This document shows positions 2,238 to 4,976 of a DNA stretch of 15,790 bases, piece after piece (position 1 is the first letter of the stretch; the number at the start of each line of letters is the position of its first letter). The translations under genes and the position numbers were made by a program. The stretch is from an uncultured Clostridia bacterium (lineage in GTDB: Bacteria > Bacillota > Clostridia > Peptostreptococcales > Anaerovoracaceae): NCBI GenBank assembly GCA_934271235.1, contig CAKQQT010000033.1, positions 1 through 15,790 of the forward strand. Reading direction: 5' to 3'. The notes below the pieces were generated by a model, which saw nothing but the letters and a program-made list of their open reading frames with translations, searched no databases and was not told the DNA's origin.

Positions 2238-2708
2238 TTACCATCTGAAGTGTGCAAACGCTCTGTTTGCATCAGCCATCTTATGCGTATCTTCCTTCTT
2301 CTTTACAGATGCACCTGTGTTGTTCGCTGCATCCATAAGTTCTTTTGCAAGTCTTTCCGCCATCGTTCTTTCGCCTCTGGCTCTTGTATACTTGGTCAGC
2401 CATCTCAGACCTAAGGTCTGTCTTCTTTCCGGTCTTACTTCTACCGGAACCTGGTAGTTCGCACCACCGATTCTCTTGGCTTTTACTTCTAATACAGGCA
2501 TGATATTGTTCATTGCCTTTTCGAATACTTCCAAAGGTTCTTCGCCTGTCTGGGCTTTGATCATGTCAAACGCACCGTAAACGATCGCCTGTGCAGTTCC
2601 TTTTTTACCGTCGAGCATAATGCTGTTGATCAGTTTGGCAACAGTTACGCTTCCGTAAACAGGATCCGGAAGTACATCTCTCTTTGGTACATTACCTTTT
2701 CTTGGCAC
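2238..2708 (-). CDS. rpsG: 30S ribosomal protein S7
   Basis: S7 is the primary assembly protein of the 30S head. It binds the 3' major domain of 16S rRNA and contacts tRNA at the E site. The 156 residues match the family length. The N-terminus reads [19 protein letters not shown], the centre contains [18 protein letters not shown], and the protein ends in the typical AHFRW. The start codon is GTG (2708-2706), fixed by the family N-terminus and by an AGGAGG Shine-Dalgarno at 2717-2722 with 8-base spacing; no ATG fits. The gene follows a 296-base structured spacer after rpsL that resembles 16S rRNA (separate entry). Autogenous control by S7 is known in E. coli and is inferred here. Confidence 0.98.
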
Positions 2709-3004
2709 TTCTCTTCCCTCCTCGCCGGATCATCCCGAGTCTGTCTTATCTAGTACGGAACGATCTGCAAACTAAAAATTAACGTTTCAATTGCACTTTG
2801 CTTCACCCTCATGCCTCTTAGGAAAATCTGTCCTTGCGGGCGTTTTCCCCGCGGCACGCGGATTACTCTGGTCAGGCTGCAATCTCGCTTCTGGCCAGTC
2901 TTCGCTGACGGGGTACTCGATCTATCCTTTAGGATGACCGTGAGCGCTTCTTTTATGCTGAAAAGAATGCTCTACCGCGTTTTTTGTCTTACCGAACGGA
3001 AATC
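2709..3004 (-). promoter_or_regulatory. Structured rpsL-rpsG spacer, candidate S7 autoregulatory RNA mimicking 16S rRNA
   Basis: This 296-base spacer has no credible ORF but several hairpins in the transcript. One at 2942-2972 has a 7-bp UUCUUUU/AAAAGAA stem plus an outer GAGC/GCUC. Another at 2924-2935 is AUCC-UAAA-GGAU. A third at 2868-2898 pairs CUGGCCAG with CUGACCAG with one mismatch. A small CCGCG-UGC-CGCGG hairpin lies at 2849-2861, and an alternative GCGGG/CCCGC pairing spans 2836-2852. GCGGUAGAGCAU (2978-2967) matches 16S rRNA GCGGUGGAGCAU (E. coli 939-950) at 11 of 12 bases. AGUAAUC (2867-2861) and UGCCGCGGGGAAAACG (2856-2841) match the 16S helix 43 region, the latter at 14 of 16 against the Firmicutes form. 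The order is the same as in 16S. S7 binds this part of 16S rRNA, and E. coli S7 represses translation at the rpsL-rpsG junction. The function here is inferred; the 16S comparison is from memory. Confidence 0.7.
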
Positions 3005-3424
3005 TTACTTCTTCGCTTTCGGTCTCTTAGCGCCGTATTTGGAACGAGCCTGCAGTCTGTTGTTCACACCTGCGGTATCAAGGGTTCCTCTTACGATGTG
3101 GTATCTTACACCCGGAAGGTCTTTGACTCTGCCGCCTCTGATCAGAACAACGCTGTGTTCCTGCAGGTTGTGGCCGATGCCAGGGATGTAAGCAGTTACT
3201 TCAATACCGTTAGTCAGACGAACTCTGGCAACCTTTCTCAGAGCCGAGTTAGGCTTTTTCGGAGTTACTGTCTTAACAGAAGTGCAAACGCCTCTTTTCT
3301 GTGGGGAATGTGTGTCAGTCGCAACTCTTCTCAGAGAGTTCATACCCTTGTTTAAAGCAGGAGCAGTTGACTTCTTCACAGCACTGGTTCTACCTTCGCG
3401 TACTAATTGATTAATAGTAGGCAT
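3005..3424 (-). CDS. rpsL: 30S ribosomal protein S12
   Basis: S12 lies at the 30S decoding centre and helps control translational accuracy. The 139-residue protein begins [12 protein letters not shown], contains [12 protein letters not shown] (residues 54-65) and [14 protein letters not shown] (96-109), and ends in [13 protein letters not shown]. It carries the roughly 14-residue insertion before PQKRGVC that distinguishes Bacillota S12 (about 137-139 aa) from the 124-aa E. coli protein. The lysines where streptomycin-resistance substitutions usually fall (K56/K57 and K101 here) are wild type. The ATG at 3424-3422 has an AAAGGAGA Shine-Dalgarno at 3431-3438. It is the first gene of the str operon and has its own consensus promoter about 100 bases upstream. 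Confidence 0.98.
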
Positions 3425-3554: not shown

Positions 3555-4976
3555 CTATTTTGTATTTTTCAAGGTTTTGCGGCAGCTGGACTCGCAGTAG
3601 GTCTTCATGTGCAGGGCTGTGTTCTTCTTGTTGACCAATGTACCGTTGCCGCGTACGCAGCCGCCCTCACAGATCATGCCCTCGATAAAATTGCCGTCCA
3701 ATTTTCCGGCCTTGGCCTTGAGGAGCGCCGCGCGGCATTCTTCGACACCGTTCGCGATCACCGGTTTGAATTCGAAATCCTCATGTCCCAGTTCATTCAA
3801 GGCCTCGATGATCGCCGCCGTGACGCCGCCGCTCTGCGCGAAGCCCCGGCCGAAGCAGGAGCCATCCTGCGGATCGCTCTCCGGCATCGTTTCCAAGTCA
3901 AGATCGCGGCTGTCAAACAACGCCTGCAGTTCAGAGAACGTCAGCACATGGTCTATGTACGGCGCTGCCTTGTCGGTCTTACGCTCGTACTTCTTGGCAA
4001 CGCACGGTCCGATGAAGACGACCAGCGCGTCAGGATCTTTTTCTTTGATGCGCTTTCCGGTCATGACCATCGGCGAAGGCGTATCGGACACCTTGTCTGC
4101 CAGCATCGGGAATTCGACGTTGACATATTCCACGAATGCCGGGCAGCAGGAGCTGGTCAGAAAGCCCCGCTCCAGCAGTTCCTCTGCCTCTGTGAGCGCG
4201 GTTTCGTCCGCGCCGCCGGCGACTTCGGTCACGCTGTCAAACCCAAGTGCCAGGATCGCGCTGAAGACCTGTCCCGTCGTCACGCCGGAAAACTGCGCAG
4301 CGACCGCCGGTGCGACGATCGCATGGATATGCTGCGCATGCTGCTGTTTGTCCTGGATCGCATGGATCACGCGGACCATGCTGGAAATATCGTTCATTGC
4401 CCCGAACGGACATTCATAGACGCAGGCACCGCAGACGATACATTTATCCTGATCGATCTTGGCGCTGCCGTCCTCGTCCATGCTGATGGCATGGACCGGG
4501 CAGGATTTTTCACATGGGCGGATCATGTTGGTGATCGCATGATATTTGCAGGCGGAAGCGCAGCGGCCGCACTCAATGCAGCGATCCTTATCAATATGCG
4601 CGTAACCTTTCGTATCGACAGCGATGGCGTCTTTCGGACAGGCTTCCCTGCAGTAATGTGCCAGACAGCCTCTGCACAGACTGGTCACCACATGGCCGGA
4701 CTTCGGACATTCATCGCAGGCGATGGTCACGACCTGCACGGTATCCTTGCTGCCGTGATATTCACCCAAGCCGATGCGGATCCGCTCCGCGATGATCGCG
4801 CGGTCCTTGTAGATACAGCAGCGCATCGGCGGTTCACCTTTTTTGACGACCACATTCGCAATGTCATTGAACGCCATGAACGCATCCTTGCCTGCCCAGG
4901 TCTGCCGCGCGAGTTCCCGCATCACCTGGTATTTGATCACATCGACCTTACTTTCAAAGATCTTATCCTTTGTCAT
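3555..4976 (-). CDS. Monomeric [FeFe]-hydrogenase, group B-like
   Basis: This is a probable cytoplasmic enzyme for reversible H2 oxidation/proton reduction with ferredoxin-type partners. The 473-residue protein starts with a region unlike classical clostridial HydA. A cysteine-rich ferredoxin segment follows, with C87/C90, C101-x2-C104-x4-C109-x3-C113, C133/136/139/143, C155/C159 and C179/182/185/189. The H-cluster domain has all three signatures: TSSCCPAF (274-281), GPCVAKKYE (323-331) and EGMICEGGC (432-440). All four H-cluster cysteines (C278, C325, C436, C440) and the proton-relay cysteine C277 are present. The usual Met of the second motif (MPC) is Gly, and TSCCPxW has Phe instead of Trp; both fit the group B enzymes (for example C. 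pasteurianum HydIII) and not group A. The ATG has GGGG and AGGA elements just upstream. It lies alone between rpoC and rpsL, and no maturase genes are visible. Sensory function is possible but no PAS or kinase domain is fused. Confidence 0.88.
   Translation of the reverse strand: MTKDKIFESKVDVIKYQVMRELARQTWAGKDAFMAFNDIANVVVKKGEPPMRCCIYKDRAIIAERIRIGLGEYHGSKDTVQVVTIACDECPKSGHVVTSLCRGCLAHYCREACPKDAIAVDTKGYAHIDKDRCIECGRCASACKYHAITNMIRPCEKSCPVHAISMDEDGSAKIDQDKCIVCGACVYECPFGAMNDISSMVRVIHAIQDKQQHAQHIHAIVAPAVAAQFSGVTTGQVFSAILALGFDSVTEVAGGADETALTEAEELLERGFLTSSCCPAFVEYVNVEFPMLADKVSDTPSPMVMTGKRIKEKDPDALVVFIGPCVAKKYERKTDKAAPYIDHVLTFSELQALFDSRDLDLETMPESDPQDGSCFGRGFAQSGGVTAAIIEALNELGHEDFEFKPVIANGVEECRAALLKAKAGKLDGNFIEGMICEGGCVRGNGTLVNKKNTALHMKTYCESSCRKTLKNTK

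Follow-up and report, generated by a model that had tools for sequence, protein, structure and literature searches.

What does the RNA between rpsL and rpsG do in this clostridial operon, and could it allow ribosomal protein S7 to govern its own synthesis? In Escherichia coli S7 acts as a repressor at the rpsL-rpsG junction, and the same determinants of the protein bind 16S rRNA and the mRNA (PMC10931766, in part). The window, by which is meant the whole stretch of 15,790 nucleotides analysed, carries on its minus strand, in this order, rpoB, rpoC, a gene for a monomeric [FeFe] hydrogenase, rpsL, the spacer, rpsG and fusA. The hydrogenase gene (TIGR04105) lies at 3555-4976, between rpoC and rpsL. 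By S7, the closest relatives among the loci compared were uncultured MAGs, L001 (97%) and L002 (96%). The spacer is 296 nt long (3004-2709), as a first-pass annotation of this DNA had stated, and is bounded by two genes.

2238..2708, minus strand: rpsG (S7), GUG start (TIGR01029, 3e-66)
3005..3424, minus strand: rpsL (S12) (TIGR00981, 1.2e-66)

Minimum-energy folding of the whole spacer was mildly informative (z -2.0). Predictions for other bacteria place transcription attenuators ahead of rpsL or fusA (PMC2965389, in part), but a terminator scan of window positions 2690-3020 found no intrinsic terminator (0.4 expected in shuffled sequences), and an attenuator in this spacer is extremely improbable.

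The core element and its map on 16S rRNA

Comparison with relatives revealed a core that reads, 5' to 3', GCRC, a linker, a hairpin (P2), AGUA, CC, a variable arm, GG, GAAG, a few bases and the start codon. The consensus may also be read as GCRC, hairpin, GAGUACC, variable arm, the Shine-Dalgarno sequence GGAGGGAAG and a start that is usually GUG; GGAGGGAAG ends in the GG and GAAG of the core. The linker between GCRC and P2 is mostly 2-4 nt, AA being the commonest, and the closing pair of P2 is C-G in 147 and U-G in 12 of 160 carriers. In the window the core comprises 2947-2912 and 2721-2705, and lies partly outside the interval 2836..2978 covered by the first-pass annotation. The parts are as follows.

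2942..2972, minus strand: 5' hairpin GAGC...GCUC preceding the core, its outer strand being the GCGGUAGAGCAU segment (from the sequence and relatives)
2943..2947, minus strand: GCGCU, 5' strand of the h28-like helix, able to pair with A-GUG-C at 2709-2705 with one G-U pair
2918..2940, minus strand: P2 hairpin (h29-like), with closing pair C2940-G2918 adjoining AGUA (from P2 covariation)
2912..2917, minus strand: AGUACC, in which AGUA resembles 16S 1346-1349 and CC pairs with the Shine-Dalgarno GG
2728..2765, minus strand: P5 hairpin, with apical UACUAGAUAAGACAGA at 2755-2740
2713..2721, minus strand: rpsG Shine-Dalgarno sequence and tail, GGAGGGAAG; G2718 and G2717 pair with C2912 and C2913, and GAA (2716-2714) would face AGUA
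2705..2709, minus strand: start codon GUG with A before it and C after it, forming the 3' strand of the h28-like helix

On E. coli 16S rRNA (numbering from L085), GCAC-AA corresponds to 933-938, AGUA to 1346-1349 and GAA to 1373-1375, while P2 occupies the place of h29 (939-943/1340-1344) and CC/GG that of 1350-1351/1371-1372. We take the h28/h29/h43 junction of 16S rRNA to be the S7 site, and AGUA and GAA there to form a bulged-G motif. The core is predicted to fold as a three-way junction resembling h28/h29/h43, in which GCRC would pair with the start codon (GUGC), P2 would stand in place of h29, and AGUA-CC would lie against the GG-GAA of the Shine-Dalgarno sequence, AGUA presumably facing GAA as the non-standard bulged-G motif. 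AGUA and GAA are invariant in the core, and since neither ever varies, their contact is outside the reach of covariation.

The apical loop UACUAGAUAAGACAGA of P5 was identical in 12 of the loci compared, the window included, and 5 of its substrings had no match in E. coli 16S; the loop is a possible further binding site. In short forms such as L010-L026 (alignment A1), the hairpin that precedes GCRC repeatedly contains an AUAUAUA(GA) run with three near-invariant A columns. The tail of the Shine-Dalgarno sequence is altered in some carriers (L009, L011, L012, L253 and L324), and spacer L101 has a tandem duplicate of GAGTACC (GAGTACCGAGTACC) ahead of S7.

The first-pass annotation had also held that the spacer imitates the S7-binding part of 16S rRNA. 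There is indeed a conserved, structured RNA that resembles h29 and h43, although mostly not by way of the segments that were named, and it had escaped notice that the rRNA-like junction takes in the rpsG Shine-Dalgarno sequence and start codon as two of its strands. The strings that it quoted are present on the minus strand, GCGGUAGAGCAU at 2978-2967, AUUGC at 2883-2879, AGUAAUC at 2867-2861 and UGCCGCGGGGAAAACG at 2856-2841. Its map built helix 29 from GCGGUAGAGCAU and AUUGC and took CCGCG-UGC-CGCGG for a shortened helix 43, and the strings do occur in the order of 16S. The 11/12 match of GCGGUAGAGCAU, offered as a mimic of h28/h29, is nevertheless at chance level: 12-base windows with at least 11 identities numbered 2 against E. 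coli 16S, where 60 shuffles averaged 1.37, and 0 against Alterileibacterium 16S, where shuffles gave 1.3. The same applies to the 14/16 match of UGCCGCGGGGAAAACG, said to be to the Firmicutes form of 16S, since 16-base windows with at least 14 identities numbered 0 against these two 16S sequences (shuffles 0.25 and 0.08). The 16S gene was recovered from 1 of 23 relatives. Across 13 relatives with the extended form described below, GCGGUAGAGCAU is kept only as a hairpin strand (GAGC..GCUC) and UGCCGCGGGGAAAACG sits in a loop insertion that was seen only in the window; CCGCG-UGC-CGCGG is not supported as a short helix 43. AUUGC is conserved, but its conserved partner is the downstream GCAAUU (2794-2789) and not GCGGU. 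AGUAAUC fared better, being both conserved and 16S-like, with GGGUGAAG (2808-2801) as its conserved partner. Contradicted by chance-level matches, missing conservation and a different partner for AUUGC, the earlier map is highly improbable.

Distribution of the core and covariation of its helices

In the Clostridia sample S7 was obtained from 116 of 128 genomes, and 99 of the 116 rpsL-rpsG junctions anchored on it carry the element by reading of the rows (an automated pattern call alone gave 95 of 116); 16 are without it, and one junction with a GUG start (L300) was ambiguous. The carriers start rpsG with GUG in 91 cases, with AUG in 7 and with UUG in 1, and the 16 non-carriers all start with AUG. 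Among 80 relatives picked by S7, GAGUACC or GAGUACU was found in 32 junctions, with 30 GUG and 2 AUG starts; the remaining 48, mainly Bacilli and Selenomonas-type with mostly short spacers, had 47 AUG starts, 1 UUG and no GUG. In the window's family the element was present in 38 of 38 junctions (37 GUG and 1 UUG starts); these were the junctions most similar to the window's among the 80 genomes, of 99, in which S7 was found. GUG starts of rpsG are associated with the element, which may be the reason why they predominate in Clostridia. The pattern GAGTACC-N9-39-AAGGAGGGAAG matched 159 of 291 genomes of the class, and no reversed control pattern was seen among the matches listed. Of these matches 130 loci were inspected, and every one of them lies immediately before an S7 start. 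In most of the Clostridia sampled the element is a concrete candidate operator.

The pairing with the Shine-Dalgarno sequence was followed through its variants. CC/GG is found in 177 of 185 distinct rows and AC/GU in 4; of the other 4, one lacks GAAG and three have CC/AG, CC/AA and CT/GG. Within one order, 19 of 287 genomes matched a pattern with C and G excluded at the first pair and nine other combinations permitted. All 19 of these rpsG junctions (L332-L350), seen in context, have GAGUAAC with GGAGUGAAG, a change of C-G to A-U on both sides. Of the further entries in the variant set, L351 was not S7 and L352 duplicated L344. Readings of AGTATC in this search were misparsed, the core string being the GAGTAAC upstream. 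With a two-by-two pattern, A or C on one side and U or G on the other, 113 of the 287 genomes gave a match, 14 of them as A-U, and among the matches listed there were no mixed pairs, all those other than A-U being C-G. A tree built on S7 from 44 rows (17 A-U and 27 C-G; L344, L348 and L367, with incomplete S7 genes, left out) shows 8 changes of state, at least 3 of them on supported branches. Both sides changed together in 3 of 3 independent pairs (sign test p 0.25, a test that cannot reach significance with only three such pairs). The A-U variant is the form found in 16S (A1350-U1372). The pairing of CC with the GG of the Shine-Dalgarno sequence is shown by comparison. Both types, A-U and C-G, occur in the two rpsG junctions of a single genome (G596; L348 and contig C6), perhaps as the result of a mixed assembly.

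For the start codon, counts were made on 160 of the 185 distinct rows, those with P2 over 45 nt being left out. GCRC was found in 112 of 145 GUG carriers (shuffled mean 9.6) compared to 1 of 15 AUG carriers, and GGCAU in 2 of 145 compared to 7 of 15, the rows not being independent in either count. GCRC was missing from 33 of the 145 GUG carriers. Several lineages show GCAC changed to GCAU where GUG is changed to AUG, and many AUG carriers have kept only GGC. A tree of carriers (n=111, 73 of them scored for both traits) provided 3 supported independent pairs with an agreement of 2.5 on average and none opposed, too few pairs for the test to reach significance. In the model-fitted alignment the outermost position of this helix is unpaired in 34 of 92 rows. 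The start-codon helix is shown by comparison less completely than P2 and CC/GG.

The core as a whole was followed in two alignments. A structure-unaware alignment, which took 62 of 77 chosen rows, had 84.0% of its cells paired, compared to 20-51% when the partners were slid by 1-3 columns. Pairs with double changes were not in excess (4 vs. 4.0 in shuffles); double-change cells numbered 28 vs. 11.8, and the covariation score was 0.253 vs. 0.207. In several rows MAFFT had misplaced the core's 5' half, and a second set of counts was taken from 92 sequences in a model-fitted alignment, with 7 double-change pairs vs. 6.3 in shuffles, again no excess, 113 double-change cells vs. 38.4 and a score of 0.385 vs. 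0.189. This second alignment favours the structure, but neither the trees nor the pattern counts depend on it. P2, like CC/GG, is shown by comparison. A covariance model gave E of about 1e-15 on the junctions, some of the genomes having also supplied training sequences. Its match in the window was weak and confined to the 3' part (2778-2700, E 0.034), because an insertion separates the halves of the core. The few weak matches elsewhere were in L061 and L031 and at second places in L018 and L104.

The second module and the choice of ligand

In the window and in 22 other distinct spacers from its relatives, a second module is inserted between AGUACC and the Shine-Dalgarno sequence, in the order hairpin, AGUAAUC, hairpin, GGUGAAG. 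Its features in the window are these.

2868..2898, minus strand: second-module hairpin (h29-like), closed by C2898-G2868, with a pseudoknot strand in its loop
2879..2884, minus strand: GAUUGC, loop strand of the pseudoknot (includes AUUGC, 2883-2879)
2860..2867, minus strand: AGUAAUCC, equal to 16S 1346-1352 plus C
2809..2859, minus strand: loop of the h43-like arm, with the insertion, seen in the window alone, that contains UGCCGCGGGGAAAACG
2801..2808, minus strand: GGGUGAAG, resembling 16S GGU-GAA 1370-1375; pairs A2863-U2805, U2862-G2806, C2861-G2807 and C2860-G2808
2789..2794, minus strand: GCAAUU, downstream strand of the pseudoknot; alternative partner UUUGCA near 2771-2766

These 23 spacers were chosen by the string [AG]GAGUAAU[CU], so that AGUAAU is not an independent count in the 22 of 23 that have AGUAAUC (L241 has AGUAAUU). 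GUGAAG is also present in 22 of 23 (L218 has GGACGAAG). In L241 both strands of the flanking stem are, by reading, altered (AUUUUCUGU/ACAGAAAGU). Of the 23 spacers, 19 combine a loop strand that reads AAUUGC, GAUUGC or AAUUUGC with a GCAAUU-like strand downstream, and the other 4 have neither. This agreement in 23 of 23, together with the combination of GAUUGC and GCAAUC in L009, argues for a pseudoknot. In many extended spacers the downstream strand can, by reading, form a hairpin instead with a UUGYGCA-like stretch. The first-pass annotation had placed AUUGC in the loop of a 2898-2868 hairpin, which can form, and had proposed two alternative folds at this strand. Competing pairings there are reasonable, but the partners differ from those proposed. 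The L009 spacer, of 489 nt, has a long near-repeat around GAGGAGGGAACGU. A related module, AGUAAG-hairpin-GAAGA, lies within the P2 loop of L004, L005, L007, L012 and L235; P2 loop and third arm thus present the same module at two places of the core.

The AGUAAUC and GGUGAA(G) of the second module share 13 identical letters with 16S 1346-1352/1370-1375; E. coli 16S has a single AGUAAUC. The core alone is not specific to h43, since GAGUAC is also found in 16S h27 (AGTA at 889); E. coli 16S contains AGTA at 7 places. Motifs of the AGUA/GAA type are present at several places in rRNA. These observations would suit a ligand other than S7, be it S9, S12 or another factor, which recognised a generic bulged-G motif, the likeness to 16S having arisen by convergence. 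Such a ligand is improbable in view of the position of the element before S7 in every one of the 130 matches inspected, the 13-letter match of the second module to h43, and the A-U form of the core, which moves toward the 16S form.

The fold may also be real and have no ligand, setting the rate of rpsG initiation or coupling it to ribosomes leaving rpsL, with no feedback by S7. The conserved parts are the Shine-Dalgarno sequence and start codon, as that explanation would have it, and where every pair can form, in 112 of 160 carriers, the complete junction averages 1.2 kcal/mol above the minimum-energy fold. A difference of this size also means that a protein could tip the balance. A mere hairpin, however, needs none of the conserved letters, which track the S7 site of 16S rRNA, above all in the second module, and a second copy of the motif in 23 distinct spacers would be of no obvious use to it. 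We regard a ligand-free fold as unlikely.

With S7 taken as the ligand, the extended form in the window has two copies of the site, and the second module probably provides another S7 site or amplifies the switch. A fuller picture for this lineage, in which an rRNA-like core and an h29/h43 replica in its third arm, with a pseudoknot opposed by a competing hairpin, make up a two-site S7 sensor, is offered tentatively, as a possibility that we consider less likely than not. If true, it would be a tandem protein sensor made of rRNA copies, with a sharper or ordered response to S7.

Probable repression by S7 and comparison with known operators

The element is a structured RNA, conserved among relatives, that sits where translation of a ribosomal protein gene begins. 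It lies between rpsL and rpsG and resembles the S7 site of 16S rRNA, the second module by its 13 identical letters and the core by mapping and by covariation at its first pair. We think it probable, from these comparisons, that S7 represses its own translation by locking the Shine-Dalgarno sequence and start codon into a replica of its rRNA site. We infer both the ligand and the repression. S7 in excess of free 16S rRNA would bind and hold the fold, hiding the Shine-Dalgarno sequence and start codon of rpsG, and 16S rRNA would release the operator by absorbing S7. In the lineage of the window the more 16S-like pseudoknot module between the halves of the core would add its second site or amplification. 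Expression of fusA would be lowered through coupling and that of rpsL by decay of the message, as in E. coli (PMC10931766, in part). The start signals appear to be built into the copy of the S7 site, so that surplus S7 is probably able to shut down its own synthesis. The Shine-Dalgarno sequence, and probably the start codon as well, co-evolve with their partner strands within an rRNA-like junction.

A search of the window with Rfam 15 (4227 models, E up to 5) gave 4 unrelated weak matches elsewhere and none at the element; none reached the gathering score on 12 loci, and on 5 loci there were 2 weak unrelated matches. A clostridial S7 leader was not found in searches of open papers or in the available parts of PMC7247131, PMC8040213, PMC6429828, PMC11109978, PMC2965389 and PMC2704228. 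As the first-pass annotation had surmised, the clostridial element appears to be undescribed, within Rfam 15 and the open papers searched.

Several known systems may be set beside it. The S7 operator of the E. coli str operon shares its junction and gene order, but the E. coli spacer is 96 nt (L086) and its rpsG starts with AUG, where clostridial carriers mostly have GUG. The clostridial covariance model R1 had no match in L086, and the likeness does not extend to the E. coli site itself; the structure of the E. coli operator is not obviously conserved elsewhere (PMC10931766, in part). In cyanobacteria the rpsL-rpsG intercistronic region resembles the S7-binding region of 16S rRNA (Meng 1989, cited in PMC10931766, in part), as the clostridial junction does, a likeness drawn here from the description. 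Imitation by mRNA leaders of the rRNA site of a ribosomal protein is a general principle (PMC7247131, in part), although rpsG and uS7 are absent from the main text of that paper. The clostridial element shares the principle with those leaders, and differs in being a whole junction that would enclose the initiation site. The SAR11 rpsL motif is likewise a structured RNA of the str operon, built on a three-stem junction, but it lies before rpsL and is reported only from Pelagibacter and marine metagenomes (PMC2704228, in part). Control by S7 at the rpsL-rpsG junction is known from E. coli and cyanobacteria, and among the sources searched its probable clostridial form appears to be new.
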